Below, one piece after another: positions 1 to 9,026 of a stretch of 40,940 nucleotides of DNA (the stretch's first letter is position 1; the number at the start of each line of letters is the position of its first letter). The notes under the pieces are model-generated. The model was not told where the DNA came from, did no database searches, and saw nothing but the letters and a program-made list of their open reading frames with translations. A program made the translations under genes and the position numbers. This stretch comes from an uncultured Clostridia bacterium (GTDB lineage Bacteria > Bacillota > Clostridia > Christensenellales > UBA1242), in contig CANRHL010000006.1 of assembly GCA_947630405.1 (NCBI GenBank), forward strand, positions 1 through 40,940, read 5' to 3'.

Positions 1-3000
1 AAGTTATCTGTTTTAGTGCCGGTGTAGTTGCCTGTACCTTCTATTGTTATGTGGTAATCGCCAACTGTTGTAAAGCCTTCGTCTTTTGGAGAATAATTAA
101 ATTCGGTAATTTCAACTAAGTCCTGCCCAGCATATGTTAAAACTGGCATTAATTTTTGGCCAACATAAACTTGCGTGCCGTTGCCTTCATATTGTTTTCC
201 CTTAACGCCGCCTTCTACATAATAGTAGGTTATTGTAACATCTTTATCTGTGATGTCCTTTGGTTTAATGGTGTAAATTGCTGAAGCACTGCCGGTAAAG
301 TTTTTGTTATCGCCGGTTACTATAACCTTTATTTTGCCCGCTTTAATTAAATCAGTTGTGTTTTCAGTAAAGGTGTCTGAGCCAGCATCTCTATAATATG
401 CCACACTATACCCGTTGTCTTCCTCATTTAGTGTTAAGCCGTTTTGGGTGGTTACTGTGGCTATTTCTATTGTTTTAGCCTCCCTATTGTATGTGCTTTC
501 AGTTGCCTTTAAGCTTACGCCATCTATTATTGCTTTATTAATTGTAAATGTATCGGTTTGGCTACCAGTAAAGTTGCCTTTCTCCACTGCGGTTACGGTT
601 ACAGTGTAATCTCCTGCGTCTTTAGTTTCTGCCTGAACTTCTGCTTTAGTGAAAGTTGCAGTATATTCATCGGCAGTTAATTCAAGCGTTCCCGCCATAA
701 CTTTTAGGGTTATCTTTTGTACTGTGCGGTTATATGTGTATTCCCCTTGAACTTCTGCGCTTGTTATGGTTGCTTGTTTAATGTTAAACTCTGTAGTTCT
801 TGTTCCGCCATAGTTGCCTTGCCCGGTTATTGTTATGGTTGCTTTTCCCGCATCGGTGTTGGCAGAATAACTAACCTTATATTCCGTTTCAATAGTTAAT
901 TCCCTATTTATTGTAGCCAACTCATCGGTTAGGGTTAAGTTTTCTTGTGTTTGGGCTAATCTATTGTAGGTTTTATCCTCAACTCCAGTTATTTTAATTT
1001 GAGCGTCCCCAATATCTCTTGGAGTAACCGAATAGTTAAGTGTTAGGTCTATTACAACACTGCTGCCCTCGTTGCTCGTTATGTGCAATGTCTTTTGCCC
1101 GACATTTATTAGGTCATCTGCTGGCTGGTAATCCACACTAAAGGCGGTTATATTATGCCCGTTATATGTAATTGTTACTGATGGCTTAATTGCTGCACCC
1201 GTGTACGCAACTGAGCTTTCATATTTAACCATTTCGGCAACATTATCTTTTGTTAATGTGAATGGATCTATATTAAAGTTAACTGTTGTGTTGCCCGTGT
1301 AGTTGCCATCCTCGTTGGCATTAATTGTAATAGTATATTCGCCTTTCTCTATTGCGTTTTGTGGATAGCTTAAAGTGTAATCCGTTCCCACACTTAATAC
1401 CTTTGTGGCCCCGGCAATTTGGTCGGATACAACAACATTAGGCTGAATTAGATTGCCCGTGTAGGTTTGGTTTGCTATTTTGTCTACTGTAACTAGGCTA
1501 ATTTTCTTTTTCTCTATTTTAAACTCTTCTTCTACTGTGCCGGTGTAGTTGCCGTGTCCTGAAAGGGTAATGGTGTAATCGCCAGCATTAATTATTTCAC
1601 TCTTTACACTTCCGCCTTGCTTATATTCTACTGTATAGTCTGTTACTTCGTTTAGGCTTACTCCGCCATAGGTTATTGTTAGGCTTGGTTTGTTCGCCAC
1701 ACCATTATATGTGGTGTTGCCCACAACAATGCTTACTCCATCATTTAAGTTCCTAGCAAGGATATCGAACTTAACAACCTTTGTTCCGCCATAGTTGCCA
1801 ATACCTTTGAATGTGGCTACCGCTTGGTTATCTTGAGTGGTTGCGTTCCTATTATTAGAAAAGGTTACTTCATAATCTTTTCCTACTTGTAGTGTATACG
1901 ATCCATCAGGTATGGTTATTTTTGGAGTTAGGTCCTTCCCCGTGTAGGTTGGAGATTCAATAACCGGATTTAATAGGGCTATATCTTTACCATAAACTTT
2001 AAACTCCCTCTCTATTATGCCAGAATAGTTATCTTTACCTGTAATGCGCACATAATATGTGCCGTGTTCAACTGGTTTATATGGGTCAGGAAGTGGAACT
2101 GAATAAGCATCATCGGAAAAATATGCTACAGTATAGTCTGTATCCTTAACTAATTTTTCACTTCTTTCTAAATCGGTTATTGTTATAGCTGCATCAACTG
2201 GCTCGCCCTCATATTCCACATCGTTTACTTCTATTTTAAGCTTGGTTATATCCTTTGCCGTGATGCTATATGTTACTGTTCGGCTGCCCGTGTAGTTACC
2301 ATTCTCTTTACCCGTTATTGTAATGGTATAGTCGCCCTTATTTGTTTGGGTTGTATCGCCAGATAGTGTGTAATCCACATTCACTGTTAGTGGTTGAGAT
2401 TTTCCTGCAATTTTGTCGGTTACCACCACAGTTGGCGTGTAGGCACTGCCTGTATAGGTTATATTTGGAATTGCATCCACTGTAATGCTGGTGTCTGCTA
2501 TGTTCTTTGGATTTATCTTAAATGCTTTATCTGCCACTGTGCCTGTGTAGTTGCCTGTACCTGTTATGGTTACAGTGTAATCGCCTGCATTAATTATCTC
2601 AGCCATTGCGCTTGTGCCTTGCTTATATGTTAATGTGTAGTCTGTTACTTCAACAAGGCCCACTCCGCCATAGGTGATTGTTAGGCTTGGTTTATTTGCT
2701 ACGCCATTATATGTGGTGTTGCCCACCGTTATACTTACGTCTGTTAAGTCCCTAGCAAGAATTGTAAAGTCCACAACCTTCGTTCCGCCATAGTTGCCTC
2801 GCCCTGTTATTGTGGCTTTGGCAAGGTTACCTGGCTTGGTTGCATTCCTATTATTAGAATAGCTTACCTCATAGTCCTTATGTAATTCAAGTGTGTATGC
2901 TCCGTCTTTTATTACTACGGCTGGAGTTAAATCTTGCCCGGTGTAGGTTGGTGAGGCTATGGTTACATCTGTTAATGTGCTAACATCTTTACCAACAACT

Positions 3001-6000
3001 TCAAACGACCTATCTATTGTGCCAGAATAGTTAGCTCTACCAGTAATTCTCACATAATATGTGCCGTGCTCTATTGGTGTGGTAGGGGTTGTATAACCCG
3101 CGTCGGAAAAATATGCTACAGTATAGTCTGTACCTTTAGCCAATGTTGCGTCTCTATCTAAATCTTTAATTGTTATATTAGCGTCAACGGCACTGCCCGT
3201 GTAGGTAACATCCCCCACGTTAATGCTTAGGTTGGTTATGCCCTTTGCCGTTATGTTATATGTTACTGTTCGGCTGCCAGTGTAGTTGCCGCCCTCTTTA
3301 CCTGTAATTGTAATAGTGTATTGTTTTACATTAGTGCCAGAAAGGTCGCCAGATAATGTGTAATCTACATCCACCTTTAATGTTTGAGATTTTCCTGCAA
3401 TTTTGTCGGTTACCACCACGGTTGGCGTGTAGGCACTGCCTGTATAGATTTTATTTGGAATTGCATCCACCGTAACTAAGGTGATGCTCTTTGCTAGAAT
3501 TGTAAATTCTTTCTCGGTTGCGCTATTAAAGTTGCCCAGACCTTCTATCTTAACAACGTATCCTCCCGCCGCAATTGGGCTAGCAGCCACTCCTTTTTGT
3601 AAGTAGCTTAGCTTATAGTCCGTGGTCTCTTTTAACGCCGTGCCTTTATATGTAATGGCTACGGTTGGCTTGTTTACTTCGCCATTATATGTTGGGTTGG
3701 TTATGCTTATGTTTATATCTCCATCCGTAATGGCGCGTGGAAGGATATCGAAATGTTCTGTTCTTGTGCCACTATAGTTGCCTTTACCGGATATTATTAG
3801 GTCGGCTTGTCCGGCTGCAGTGTTGTTTGCATACGATACGCCATAGTCTGTACTCGTCAGCGCCTTGCCGTTGTCTGTAATAGTGAATGTTACGTTGGTT
3901 ATTGCGCTGCCTGTGTAGGTGTAGGTTCCAGTTATTTTCACCACAACAGTGCTGCCGTCTATGTTCTTGCCCGTAATCTTAAATTGCGTGCGGATGTTCC
4001 CGTTATAGTTGCCCGTACCTGTTATAAGCACATAGTAGGTGCCATTGCCTAGCGGTGTTACTGTTGAGCCGCTATAGCTATTTGTCGAATAATACGCAAC
4101 ATTGTAGTCCGAGCCTTTGGCTAATGTAACACCCCTATCCTCGTCTGTAACCGTTAGGGTTGGCTCAATCGCGCTGCCCGTGTATATCATATCCGAAATG
4201 CTCACTTTTAGGCCGGATATGCTCTTCTGTGTTATACTAAAGCTCAACACTTTGCTGCCCGTGTAGTTGCCTTTACCTGTTATGGTCACCTTGCCGCCGG
4301 TGGAAACATTCGTGTTGGTGTCGTAGGTTATGTCGTAATCCTTGCCCGATGCCAATGTGCCAACACTATCTCGCACCGTTATGCTTGGCTTAATTGGGCT
4401 GCCCGTGTAAACTTGGCTTGGAATAGGGTTAGGCATAAACTCCACATCCCCCGCCGTGCCAACATCTTTCTTGGTAATCTCAAGTGTGAAAGATAATGTA
4501 CCTGTATAATTGTATGTTTTAGGAGTAATTGTAACCGAATGGCTGCCCGCATCCTTAAAGTTGCCCGTGGTAGACATCGAAAGTTGGTAAGGATCTATAA
4601 AATCAAATTCATTTGGCAATTCTGAAATGTTTTTACTAATACAGAAACCTTCTATTGCATCATATTCCAACCATGAGATATCAAAAGGTTGCACTATTGA
4701 GTAGTTACCAGAAGATGGCTGCTCAATAGCTGGCTGAGACGATTTGCCATCATATTCTATTGTTATTTTGTCTGTTTTCTCAACTGATGTCGGTATTCCT
4801 TCTGCGGATACATTCATCTTATATAATGATCCATTTAAGAACAACCATCCAGCAACCATTTTTGCATCATCGACAGTCGTACCCCTAACAACCTGAATCA
4901 GTATAGACATTAATTTAGTTTGTTTAATAGTAAAGCTTTTAGTTAATGTTCCGGTGTAATTGCCCGTTCCTGTTACTTTAACTTGTGCTTGCTCGGTTGA
5001 GCTAGCACTAGTGTTGTTGCTATATTCTACTTTATAATTTCCGCTTGGTAAAACTGCGCCACCTAGATTTACAGTTACGGCCGGCTGGGCAGTAACTCCG
5101 CTTACATAACGGTCGGTCATATGCCCTGGGCCATCACTCCACTTATCTGCCACAGTCAGTGTGCCGCCAGTTATGCTTTTTGCCGTAATGCTAAAGTCCT
5201 TATCCTGGCTGCCGGTAAAGTTAGGCCCAATGCCCTCAAAGTGCGCCGTGTAGTTGCCCACATTTATGCAGTCACTTGAGTTGCCGCCCTTAACACGATA
5301 GGTCACATTATAGTCCGTGCCAGCAGTAAGTTTCTGCCCGTTATATTTAACCGTTCCCTCTGGTTTATGCGATGCCCCATCGTAAACAAAGGTTGTGTTG
5401 GCAAGCGTTATGTCGGTATTGCCAATGTTTCCTGCCGTTATGGTGTAGGAAATGCTTGCCGAGCCAACATAGTTGCCCTGGCCTTCCACCACCACATAAT
5501 ATGTGCCAGCCGAAACACTCTTAACCTTGCTGCCGTCAACCACCGTGCCGTTTGCCGTATCTTTATGGTAGGTAACCTTGTAATCGTCCTTGCCCAACGT
5601 CTTGCTCTTGCCATTTAATGTTATGGTCACGCTCTGCACCGCCGCCTTATGCTCGGCACCATCGTAGGCAAAAGAGGTTTTATCTAGTGTTATTGTTGTT
5701 CCATTGGTTATGCTCTTTTGGCTAATATACCAATTCTTACTTAATGAGCCAGTGTAGTTGCCAATACCTGTTACGTTCACTGTTGCATTGCCCGAATTCG
5801 TGTTGCTAACATAACTTACGTTATAGTCCACACCCTTAGTTAGTTTGCCTAGGGTTTTATCTGTTATAACCACGTCCGGAGTAATGGCCTCGCCCGTGTA
5901 AGGTGTGTCCGCAATCTCGCCAATCGTAGCATTCGTGCCAAGGTCGCGCGGATTAATGGTATATGGAATAGACCTCGTTCCCGTGTAGTTTCCACGGCCC

Positions 6001-8450
6001 GAAATGGTTACATTGTAATTGCCTGCCGCCGTTGCTCCCGTGCTGGTTATGGTGTAGTCCGTGCCTTTAACCAACTTCTTGCCCGTGCCGGTATCCGTTA
6101 TACTTACATCGCTCGGCTGGTGCGCACTGCCATCATAAGTGAACGGCGATATCGCCCCCACCGTGTAGCCCGTTGACGTCGATATGTCCTTAGGGTTGAC
6201 AGTTATCGTTATGGTTTTTATGAGGTCTCCCCCATCGCTCAATTTGAATTCAATACAATTAACCGTAACTGTATATTTTCCCACATTAACAATGCTAGAA
6301 ACTTCACTGTTTGAACTGTTTTTGATTGATGTTATCCAAATTTCTGATGGTTGTAATTGATAATAACCAGATGCACCACTTACATAAGGGCTATATAAAT
6401 TAAGTTTTGATTCCGAATTTTTGTCGAAAATTGTTGAGCCTGTATATGTGTAAGATTTTGTTGAGACATCCACCACATAATTGGACGCTCCATAACTTCC
6501 CGCATTGTTTCTTCTATCTACCGTGTAATAAACATAATATGAGCCTTGATAATTGCCTTTGCCATTAATTCTTATTCTGTGCTTACCGCTAAACAAACAG
6601 TTTGAATAGTTTGAAGAAGAACTCCCAGCAGGGTTGTAATATCCACTGGCAGATTCAGACATCCATCTGCCTTTATAGTAAACTTGAGGGTCATCCAATG
6701 TGTAATCCGAGCCTTTAGTGGGCTTGCTTCCATTATATGATAAATTGTTAATTATGTAATATGCTAAACTTTGTGGATAACCATCTGCCAAATAGTTACC
6801 ACCACCTGCACAATCTTGTAAAGACGAAAAAGTATGAAAACTATTTTGAGTGGATTGCCAAGACGAAAGTTTTGTGCCGCCAAGTGTTGCATCGCCAATG
6901 TCCTTTTCTTCTTCATAAATAACAATGTAACCTTTAAAGGTGGCATGCCCATCGGTATATTGATTATATGGACTGTGTTGAAGAAGGCCGGAAAGGTCCA
7001 CGTCAGCATACACTTCGCCAACACCTAGATTAGCGTTACCTACATAACAGCTGCTTACAACCGCGCTAGTTAATAAGGAAGTTACTTCTCTCCCAAACTG
7101 AAATAAGTAGTTACCGATACTTCCATAACATTGTTGACCCGTATATGGTTTCTCATTATATGGGGTTGTATATTCAACATTCCATTGTGTAGAGTATTGC
7201 CCCAACTCCGCTTGCACGTCAATGCATTGGTCCCAAAGGTCGTTAACATCAAAAGTAATACCATTCCCATAGCTATCATCTAGATTTAACTTATCCACGA
7301 TTGAAAGATTGGGCCACGCAGATGAGTTGCCAAAAAGCCACTGTCTAATATCCGCTGAATTTATATCTGGTAGACGTGTGCCATAATCGCAATCATATCT
7401 TTCCAGGAAAGCTTTTTGTGGATATATATAACCCTCATCACTACGCGGAATTCTATAAGTATACGGACTTCCAGAGTAGTCTGCAAGTTTTAACGCAATG
7501 CCGTTTATGGAAATCCAACCCGTGCTTCCAACTCTGTCTGTGGCCAATACATATGCGGCATCCTCAAACGGGTCAATCAATTCACCAATGGAAAAAGATT
7601 CTGGATTATCTTGTGTCACAGCACTCCACATGGCAGTTAGGCTCAAATTAATGCATGGGCGGATATAGTTTCCATAATCTCCCGGCCCGCCATCTCTCGT
7701 GGCGAAACCTCCATAGTCACCAAAATAATCAACCTCATACCGAGAGGGTATCCAAACTTTATCGTGAATCCACTGATTATAGACTGGGGAATACTTATCT
7801 CCCACAACCGCACCAAACACATCTGCATACGCATTAACTTCATAGTCCATAAGAAGTGGGTCAATTAACAAGTCTCTTATCGGACTAAGAGTTTCTAGTA
7901 GTGAATTTGGAGCCTGACATAAGGTATATCTAGCATCACTGAAGGAATAGGATTCAAAAGTTGTTTTCCCTAACTTATATTCTCCAATTGTTTCATGTTC
8001 CATCCTTAAATCGCAAGTTGCGCTAAAATCCATGTCAACGTAGCCTTGGGAGACATCCTCCTCCCCGCCGGCTGCTAAAGTTACAAAAGGAGTAAGGTCC
8101 TCTGATAAACCAAAAGACATAGCGGTCCACCGGTGGCCATCGATATTAAATACTGCGAGGTTAGTTAAACCATAATATCCCGGAGGCCCATCCATAATGC
8201 GAAAGTCCCCGTGAGAGAAACCATCTGTAAAGTCGTTATCATCAAAAAATTCCATTATGCTGGAGTAATCAAGTCCATATTCTTTGGCAGCTTCGGATGA
8301 AATTTTTTTGTTATTGCCCTTGAATAAAAAAAGTGTACCAAAAAGAGTGGCACACAAACAAATTACAAGTGCACTAATAACACCACATATTATTTTATTT
8401 TGAGTGCGGGTACCCCCCCCCCTACGGTTTTTTAAATTATCATTATTCAT
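1..8450 (-). CDS. Giant surface/secreted repeat protein, partial (C-terminus beyond window); N-terminal TM/signal anchor, DUF6273-like N-terminal region, then many GNYTGT-type Ig-like (MBG-like) repeats
   Basis: Reverse-strand translation from ATG at 8450 (MNNDNLKNRRGGGTRTQNKIICGVISALVICLCATLFGTLFLFKGNNKK...) stays open to base 1 with the repeat signature ...YTG..I.P.V...KGTDYTV.Y..N...G.Y.V.ITGKGNYTGT.T..F.I... SD-like AGGTGG upstream. N-terminal region with WIPSRYEV...YIRPCINLSL resembles DUF6273-type domains. Confidence 0.93.
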   Translation of the reverse strand, partial: MNNDNLKNRRGGGTRTQNKIICGVISALVICLCATLFGTLFLFKGNNKKISSEAAKEYGLDYSSIMEFFDDNDFTDGFSHGDFRIMDGPPGYYGLTNLAVFNIDGHRWTAMSFGLSEDLTPFVTLAAGGEEDVSQGYVDMDFSATCDLRMEHETIGEYKLGKTTFESYSFSDARYTLCQAPNSLLETLSPIRDLLIDPLLMDYEVNAYADVFGAVVGDKYSPVYNQWIHDKVWIPSRYEVDYFGDYGGFATRDGGPGDYGNYIRPCINLSLTAMWSAVTQDNPESFSIGELIDPFEDAAYVLATDRVGSTGWISINGIALKLADYSGSPYTYRIPRSDEGYIYPQKAFLERYDCDYGTRLPDINSADIRQWLFGNSSAWPNLSIVDKLNLDDSYGNGITFDVNDLWDQCIDVQAELGQYSTQWNVEYTTPYNEKPYTGQQCYGSIGNYLFQFGREVTSLLTSAVVSSCYVGNANLGVGEVYADVDLSGLLQHSPYNQYTDGHATFKGYIVIYEEEKDIGDATLGGTKLSSWQSTQNSFHTFSSLQDCAGGGNYLADGYPQSLAYYIINNLSYNGSKPTKGSDYTLDDPQVYYKGRWMSESASGYYNPAGSSSSNYSNCLFSGKHRIRINGKGNYQGSYYVYYTVDRRNNAGSYGASNYVVDVSTKSYTYTGSTIFDKNSESKLNLYSPYVSGASGYYQLQPSEIWITSIKNSSNSEVSSIVNVGKYTVTVNCIEFKLSDGGDLIKTITITVNPKDISTSTGYTVGAISPFTYDGSAHQPSDVSITDTGTGKKLVKGTDYTITSTGATAAGNYNVTISGRGNYTGTRSIPYTINPRDLGTNATIGEIADTPYTGEAITPDVVITDKTLGKLTKGVDYNVSYVSNTNSGNATVNVTGIGNYTGSLSKNWYISQKSITNGTTITLDKTSFAYDGAEHKAAVQSVTITLNGKSKTLGKDDYKVTYHKDTANGTVVDGSKVKSVSAGTYYVVVEGQGNYVGSASISYTITAGNIGNTDITLANTTFVYDGASHKPEGTVKYNGQKLTAGTDYNVTYRVKGGNSSDCINVGNYTAHFEGIGPNFTGSQDKDFSITAKSITGGTLTVADKWSDGPGHMTDRYVSGVTAQPAVTVNLGGAVLPSGNYKVEYSNNTSASSTEQAQVKVTGTGNYTGTLTKSFTIKQTKLMSILIQVVRGTTVDDAKMVAGWLFLNGSLYKMNVSAEGIPTSVEKTDKITIEYDGKSSQPAIEQPSSGNYSIVQPFDISWLEYDAIEGFCISKNISELPNEFDFIDPYQLSMSTTGNFKDAGSHSVTITPKTYNYTGTLSFTLEITKKDVGTAGDVEFMPNPIPSQVYTGSPIKPSITVRDSVGTLASGKDYDITYDTNTNVSTGGKVTITGKGNYTGSKVLSFSITQKSISGLKVSISDMIYTGSAIEPTLTVTDEDRGVTLAKGSDYNVAYYSTNSYSGSTVTPLGNGTYYVLITGTGNYNGNIRTQFKITGKNIDGSTVVVKITGTYTYTGSAITNVTFTITDNGKALTSTDYGVSYANNTAAGQADLIISGKGNYSGTRTEHFDILPRAITDGDINISITNPTYNGEVNKPTVAITYKGTALKETTDYKLSYLQKGVAASPIAAGGYVVKIEGLGNFNSATEKEFTILAKSITLVTVDAIPNKIYTGSAYTPTVVVTDKIAGKSQTLKVDVDYTLSGDLSGTNVKQYTITITGKEGGNYTGSRTVTYNITAKGITNLSINVGDVTYTGSAVDANITIKDLDRDATLAKGTDYTVAYFSDAGYTTPTTPIEHGTYYVRITGRANYSGTIDRSFEVVGKDVSTLTDVTIASPTYTGQDLTPAVVIKDGAYTLELHKDYEVSYSNNRNATKPGNLAKATITGRGNYGGTKVVDFTILARDLTDVSITVGNTTYNGVANKPSLTITYGGVGLVEVTDYTLTYKQGTSAMAEIINAGDYTVTITGTGNYTGTVADKAFKINPKNIADTSITVDAIPNITYTGSAYTPTVVVTDKIAGKSQPLTVNVDYTLSGDTTQTNKGDYTITITGKENGNYTGSRTVTYSITAKDITKLKIEVNDVEYEGEPVDAAITITDLERSEKLVKDTDYTVAYFSDDAYSVPLPDPYKPVEHGTYYVRITGKDNYSGIIEREFKVYGKDIALLNPVIESPTYTGKDLTPKITIPDGSYTLQVGKDYEVTFSNNRNATTQDNQAVATFKGIGNYGGTKVVKFDILARNLNDGVSIVVGNTTYNGVANKPSLTITYGGVSLNEVTDYTVEYKQGGSVKSEIINAGDYTITLSGHGNYTGTVEEEFKIEKKKISLVTVDKIANQTYTGNLIQPNVVVSDQIAGATKVLSVGTDYTLSYPQNAIEKGEYTITINANEDGNYTGNTTVNFNIDPFTLTKDNVAEMVKYESSVAYTGAAIKPSVTITYNGHNITAFSVDYQPADDLINVGQKTLHITSNEGSSVVIDLTLNYSVTPRDIGDAQIKITGVEDKTYNRLAQTQENLTLTDELATINRELTIETEYKVSYSANTDAGKATITITGQGNYGGTRTTEFNIKQATITSAEVQGEYTYNRTVQKITLKVMAGTLELTADEYTATFTKAEVQAETKDAGDYTVTVTAVEKGNFTGSQTDTFTINKAIIDGVSLKATESTYNREAKTIEIATVTTQNGLTLNEEDNGYSVAYYRDAGSDTFTENTTDLIKAGKIKVIVTGDNKNFTGSASAIYTIKPKDITDKDVTITYYYVEGGVKGKQYEGNGTQVYVGQKLMPVLTYAGQDLVEITEFNYSPKDEGFTTVGDYHITIEGTGNYTGTKTDN
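1470..4440 (-). repeat. Higher-order tandem repeat (about 1 kb period, ~4 Ig-like domains per unit) inside the giant ORF
   Basis: 2396-2457 and 3386-3447 match over 62 nt with one mismatch (offset 990); 1679.. and 2681.. share TTAGGCTTGGTTT...CCATTATATGTGGTGTTGCCCAC (offset ~1002). Domain order VDAIPN.., EHGTYYVRITG.., SPTYTG.DLTP.., TTYNGVANKPSLTITYGG.. recurs. Confidence 0.8.
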
Positions 8451-8501
8451 ATTAACTACCACCTTTTGCTTTTTATTTTCCCCTTGTGCATAGCATTATG
8501 T

Positions 8502-8530
8502 CACCCTGAGCCTGTCGAAGGGTCTCAACC
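8502..8530. repeat. Intergenic repeat of the CCCTGAGCCTGTCGAAGGG type
   Basis: tcaccctgagcctgtcgaagggtctcaacc; a motif recalled from many bacterial genomes, often mistranslated as CHPEPVEGS (as in the spurious ORF 8466..8810). Confidence 0.55.
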
Positions 8531-8603: not shown

Positions 8604-9026
8604 TTAAGGAGCAACCGAACACCAAGCCTATATTTGCAAAATGAAATGACGCAAATTGGCAATAGTGAGAGTTGCGACGTTTTTGTTAGTTTGTATTATT
8701 TTAAATTATTTTATAATAATTTGTCAAAGAAAAATCGACAAATTTTTAATTTTTTTTATAAAAATAATTTTTCAATAAAAATAAACCAATTTTTTATTTG
8801 TTATTTTTAATAATTTATTTTTTGTTAAAAATTAATAAAAAATCTATTTTTAATATAAAAATTCCTATTTTTTTGCGTTTTTTATTTAAAATTTATTAAT
8901 TTTACAAAAATTTTTATACATTTTTTTTTATTTTATGTTACAATTAAGCAGGAATTTATTATTCTAAATTCAAAGGTTGTAAGTTTACAATTTTTCATTA
9001 AAAGATAAAAAATAAAAGGATAAATT

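Follow-up and report, generated by a model that had tools for sequence, protein, structure and literature searches.

In mucosal Gram-negative bacteria and in Treponema, poly-G contingency loci are a textbook subject. Does a run of ten G residues near the 5' end of a giant gene from an uncultured member of the Clostridia operate as such a switch? The run lies in what we refer to as the window, the whole stretch of 40,940 nucleotides analyzed here, which is the entire contig C6 of a 949-kb genome assembled in 43 contigs. Judged from its sequence, it is very probably a translational phase-variation (contingency) switch and part of a broader poly-G phasome; the reading as a slip-prone switch builds on a sister gene found in the OFF state and on similar G runs in surface-protein genes and promoters of the genus.

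The first-pass annotation had reported ten G residues in codons 10-13 of an open reading frame of more than 2800 codons, and both statements hold. The minus strand carries exactly G10 at positions 8413-8422, the coding strand of a predicted surface-protein gene whose ATG start codon occupies 8448-8450. This strand begins with ATG AAT AAT GAT AAT TTA AAA AAC CGT AGG GGG GGG GGT ACC, so that nine codons precede the run and codons 10-13 read AGG GGG GGG GGT. A Shine-Dalgarno-like sequence, AAAGGTGGT (minus strand, 8458-8466; eight of nine positions match AAAGGAGGT), is present directly upstream of the ATG. The reading frame (minus strand, 3-8450) comprises 2816 codons and is cut on its 3' side by the contig end; since it is still open there, the C-terminus of the protein is missing. 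Downstream of the tract, residues ~19-43 (minus strand, 8322-8396) form the single hydrophobic segment found by hydropathy, a putative signal peptide or membrane anchor. A probable sigma70 promoter without a G tract (TTGACA-18-TAAAAT; 11 of 12 matches) is located at 8698-8727 on the minus strand, in a scan that found seven sites in total versus 4.1 expected. The upstream region also contains a palindrome-like sequence, TCACCCTGAGCCTGTCGAAGGGT (8501-8523), approximately 50 bp in front of the gene; its core has one exact copy in the genome, and a related sequence adjoins an intergenic G9 tract on contig C3 (L009).

What would a change in tract length do to the product? With G10, translation yields at least 2816 amino acids, while G8, G9, G11 and G12 give products of 17, 19, 18 and 20 amino acids, respectively, all of which stop short of the hydrophobic segment or just at its edge. 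Hence, a slip of a single base loses the membrane segment and everything downstream of it, as had been proposed for +1 and -1 slippage. During replication, slipped-strand mispairing would add or remove one G in the tract. The ON frame corresponds to 3n+1 G residues, so that tracts of 10, 7 or 13 G would permit synthesis of the full protein with its short basic N-terminus, its membrane or signal segment and a long array of Ig-like domains, whereas translation of all other lengths would terminate after 17-20 residues. As this stop lies ahead of the export segment, such a cell would be left without the protein.

The protein itself had been annotated as a giant adhesin. Degenerate repeats of ~84 amino acids, delineated by motif spacing and alignment and resembling MBG/Ig-like beta domains, extend over residues ~836-2642 (minus strand, 525-5945); there are ~20 of them, with 21 motif copies at ~84-amino-acid spacing. 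One repeat, modeled by AlphaFold, is predicted to be all beta (pLDDT 91), and its nearest folds in Foldseek are Big_3/bacterial Ig-like, Rib and Sap S-layer domains at E 0.02 or weaker, none of the Foldseek matches reaching an E-value below 0.001. The curated Pfam cut-off for MBG domains was not reached (MBG_3, 20.6 bits versus 25; best E-value of single repeats 8.5e-6), a profile search of the PDB with the repeats returned nothing significant, and NCBIfam offers no name for these surface proteins. The motif spacing, the model and the nearest folds support tandem beta-sandwich (Ig-like) repeats, and to describe the product as a surface protein whose stalk consists of Ig-like repeats is fairly well founded. 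The N-terminal hydrophobic segment together with the repeat array points to a surface or host-interaction gene as the target of the putative switch, and the protein would be displayed on the cell surface. Matches below the curated cut-offs argue only weakly for the original label; an adhesin function is plausible but unproven.

The tract stands out from its surroundings. No other homopolymer in the window (62% A+T), whatever its base, is as long: G/C runs of length 6 and length 10 occur once each, runs of 7-9 are absent and the longest A/T run measures nine. Matches to G9 in the window number two, against 0.05 expected from dinucleotide-preserving shuffles. Across the 949 kb of the genome, pattern searches and fetched stretches revealed eight runs of nine or more G, compared with ~1.2 extrapolated from the window shuffles (Poisson P ~4e-5). 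The window gene uses GGG for 32 of its 279 glycine codons. Three of the eight runs reside in leaders of paralogous genes, three in the spacers between -35 and -10 promoter hexamers, while a glycosyltransferase gene and an intergenic region hold one each.

A search for similar tracts in paralogues, suggested in the first-pass annotation, uncovered two further genes that share the leader and carry the tract at an identical codon position; one has G10 and is ON, the other has G11 and is OFF. The near-identical leader MNNDNLKNRRGGGT, followed by the membrane segment, which is conserved in all copies, is found on contigs C6 (the window gene; G10, ON), C40 (890-899; G10, ON) and C9 (2089-2099; G11, OFF by frameshift). 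The C40 paralogue also has the same promoter hexamers and spacing as the window gene (TTGACA-18-TAAAAT). In the C9 copy, the frame of the ATG stops after 17 codons, and 695 codons are open in the shifted frame, where an ATG preceded by a fair ribosome site is not encountered before approximately residue 99. These ON and OFF assignments are consensus states of a metagenome-assembled genome (MAG), and the OFF state of the C9 copy, which depends on one consensus base, might in principle reflect an error in the assembly. As in a contingency gene, a 5' homopolymer beyond chance, truncation by a single unit, and copies in both the ON and the OFF state are found together. Searches with the leader profile A1 found strong scores in this genome and no strong relatives outside it; we count this restriction of the leader family against the switch reading.

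One could argue that selection acts on the protein instead, the run merely encoding a Gly-rich linker (RRGGGT) ahead of the membrane segment, with incidental G-rich codons and no switching. Gly-Gly-Gly is indeed kept in all three paralogues. However, read in the open frame, the four tract codons show no difference in any paralogue pair, while the codons around them have accumulated 4-7 synonymous and 8-19 non-synonymous changes, which indicates that the DNA run itself has been kept. An identical, unbroken G run in three paralogues, despite changes at neighboring synonymous sites, is not what a linker calls for; moreover, the run frameshifts one of these paralogues, runs of equal length occupy non-coding promoter spacers in the same genome and in the genus, and runs of 7-8 G are nearly missing. 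We therefore regard the linker explanation as very unlikely.

The three promoter tracts of the genome each lie between TTGACA and a -10 hexamer: on C8, G9 in an 18-nucleotide spacer precedes a gene whose product has a membrane segment at its N-terminus; on C22, G13 in a 22-nucleotide spacer precedes a gene for a predicted lipoprotein; and at C4:34054, G10 between TTGACA and the -10 hexamer precedes a gene for an uncharacterized 305-amino-acid protein. The tract in the GT2 glycosyltransferase gene is in frame within the coding sequence, and the G9 tract on C3 is intergenic and has no obvious role. The C22 promoter (G000:C22:9293-9326; ~5294-5327 of L014) is predicted to be weak with its 22-nucleotide spacer, and a second promoter without a tract (TTGACA-17-TAAACT) comes after it; in G012 and in G007, the homologous regions contain G10. 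If the three leader genes, the GT2 glycosyltransferase gene and the three promoter-spacer tracts switched independently of each other, many combinations of surface components would result.

Is this arrangement peculiar to one genome? G runs of at least 9 are present in 27 of the 34 species-level genomes of the genus (164 runs in total). We classified 141 runs, drawn from 127 stretches fetched from congeners and from the eight runs of the present genome. Fifty-four of the 141 are positioned between TTGACA and TATAAT hexamers (up to two mismatches), compared with three in a flank-reversed control (P ~1e-15), and the spacers of these tract promoters have a modal length of 18-19; in a pattern search for tract promoters, the reversed control gave none. 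Across the fetched DNA (474 kb), the density of G/C runs falls from 206.9 per Mb at length 5 to 14.8 per Mb at length 6; runs of 7 are absent and those of 8 occur twice, while runs of 9-14 amount to 4.8 per Mb genus-wide, those of 9-11 being common. The length distribution is hence bimodal, and the gap at 7-8 G sets the long tracts apart as a separate population rather than the tail of a random distribution. An N-terminal hydrophobic segment is encoded by 35 of the 47 genes behind promoter tracts versus 143 of 366 baseline open reading frames. The targets of coding tracts include acyltransferases, GtrII- and PMT-type glycosyltransferases, BspA-type LRR proteins and an EcoRI-type methylase. Tract genes in the genus further encode predicted lipoproteins, membrane-anchored repeat proteins and an asparagine-synthase-like protein. 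Over compared stretches of 3.0-4.0 kb, three congeners show 100% identity to public MAG records labeled 'uncultured Clostridia bacterium', namely G008 to CANDFN01, G032 to CANPWT01 and G012 to CANQHS01; in the latter two, isolate names start with 'Lapin', a hint at rabbit.

Several individual loci deserve mention. At G025:C5:28267 (L258, tract 1995-2006), G12 puts a gene for an EcoRI-type adenine methylase out of frame (OFF); its downstream part matches PF13651 (E 1e-93), which makes it a candidate phase-variable methylase (phasevarion). A third type of placement, in which the tract ends one base 5' of the ATG of a surface gene (..catG9tATGCGT..), was seen in L311 (5389-5397 and 1999-2011), L349 and L353; here a change in length could affect the ribosome site or the early transcript, or could act on an alternative start. 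Near-identical tract promoter cassettes are positioned 5' of genes for paralogous membrane-anchored proteins in G005, G008, G014 and G028 (L262-L271, L276-L280, L331-L343 and L250-L254), so that promoter and switch seem to have been copied along with the gene family. Similar poly-G promoters occur, among the matches listed, in gut Bacilli, other Clostridia, Streptobacillus and others; these matches include Streptobacillus notomytis LJRV01, rabbit Bacilli MAGs and Erysipelotrichaceae SVBA01, and among them some species outside the genus have several poly-G promoter spacers per genome. The phenomenon is thus broader than the genus.

Draft assemblies do contain poly-G artefacts, and one might attribute the runs to poly-G miscalls or to wrong homopolymer lengths in a MAG. 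The very long or clustered poly-G stretches near the contig ends of G046:C5, G049:C12 and G008:C98 resemble sequencing artefacts of this kind and should be filtered from any census. The run in the window, in contrast, is internal, with the frame intact on both sides at G10, and tracts of the same length class recur at functional positions in independent loci and in independently assembled genomes. A length error of one base would change an ON or OFF call but not the existence of the tract. Of the explanations weighed here, we hold an artefact to be the least probable.

Homologous tracts with alignable flanks differ in length in 27 of 40 pairs within a genome and in 9 of 18 pairs between species. 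Four near-identical promoters of G005 contain G10, G11, G11 and G13; six of G014 measure 10, 11, 11, 12, 10 and 11, and another three 10, 11 and 10; promoter copies of G028 and G008 likewise vary in tract length. A pair of coding paralogues in G003 comprises a G9 copy that is OFF and a G11 copy that is ON, the latter encoding a BspA-type LRR protein. Between the related species G013 and G021, five orthologous tracts do not differ in length, and this counts against switching. Slippage might alternatively take place during expression. RNA polymerase can slip on homopolymers of such length, and slippage by it or by the ribosome would furnish every cell with a fixed mixture of full-length and truncated protein, which would allow the G11 paralogue to make some product. 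Yet this process leaves unexplained both the tracts in non-transcribed promoter spacers and the differences in DNA length between near-identical copies. It could act in addition to mutation; as the explanation for the tracts, it strikes us as highly improbable. The contingency switch originally suspected from the G tract is thus supported by the states of the paralogues, by the tracts of the genus and by the varying lengths of near-identical copies. The tract, its consequence for the frame, the OFF paralogue and these length differences can be read directly from the DNA; a live rate of switching and a benefit to the cell are what we infer.

Loss of mismatch repair was considered as a cause of the tracts and rejected, as every one of the 34 genomes, whether or not it has tracts, contains MutS and MutL. 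Their presence should slow slippage, a point that counts against switching; with mismatch repair retained throughout, the switching rate may be modest.

Slipped-strand phase variation is already well known as a mechanism. In the Campylobacter phasome (PhasomeIt survey, PMC6321876), modal tract lengths are 9-10 and 77% of the tracts lie in open reading frames; Campylobacter jejuni and other Campylobacter resemble the present case in having several intragenic coding-strand poly-G tracts per genome in surface-structure genes (PMC6321876). The differences are the host lineage, uncultured Clostridia, the many promoter-spacer tracts, MutS and MutL in all genomes searched, and an unrelated target family (MBG/Ig-like repeats). 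The Neisseria phasome (PMC5953494), again with modal lengths of 9-10, comprises genic G/C tracts (nalP, lgtA) and a promoter-spacer tract (porA); as here, the genic frameshift route and the -35/-10 spacer route coexist in one genome, with tracts of 9-14 nucleotides affecting surface proteins and glycan enzymes (PMC5953494). Our organism belongs to another phylum and has a genome of ~1 Mb, and in contrast to Neisseria, the promoter tract of its relatives G005, G014 and G008 has been duplicated along with families of paralogous surface genes. Among tested models, Treponema pallidum comes closest to the promoter tracts of this genome; there, poly-G tracts of tp0126 and tprE/G/J/L are found between -35 and -10 or beside the transcription start site, with length-dependent promoter activity and length variation in vivo (PMC7864442); according to the summary given in that paper, tp0126 is optimal at 17 nucleotides and tprE/G/J are permissive at up to 8 G, and together with porA they provide a tested model for the promoter class (PMC7864442). 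The window switch would be a coding rather than a promoter switch. The 5' poly(A) tract of Listeria monocytogenes inlA likewise concerns a Gram-positive surface gene in which slippage shortens the product to a few residues (PMC2831843), but that case involves poly(A) and a single gene, as opposed to poly(G) and paralogues in different states (PMC2831843). The literature searched on phase variation in Christensenellales, uncultured lineages, MAGs and gut Clostridia yielded no description of this lineage; the novelty lies in a poly-G phasome among uncultured gut Clostridia that have small genomes and keep both MutS and MutL.

Collectively, it seems fairly likely that this genus, with genomes of ~1 Mb, runs much of its cell surface through a dense poly-G phasome, which uses coding tracts, promoter cassettes that have multiplied with lineage-specific surface families and, in one species, a phase-variable DNA methylase, with mismatch repair retained. 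If real, slippage-switched surface genes would affect encounters with host antibodies, phages and mucus, and frameshifted genes in such MAGs would not simply be pseudogenes. Bacteria known only as MAGs would then constantly reshuffle their surface, each MAG freezing one combination.
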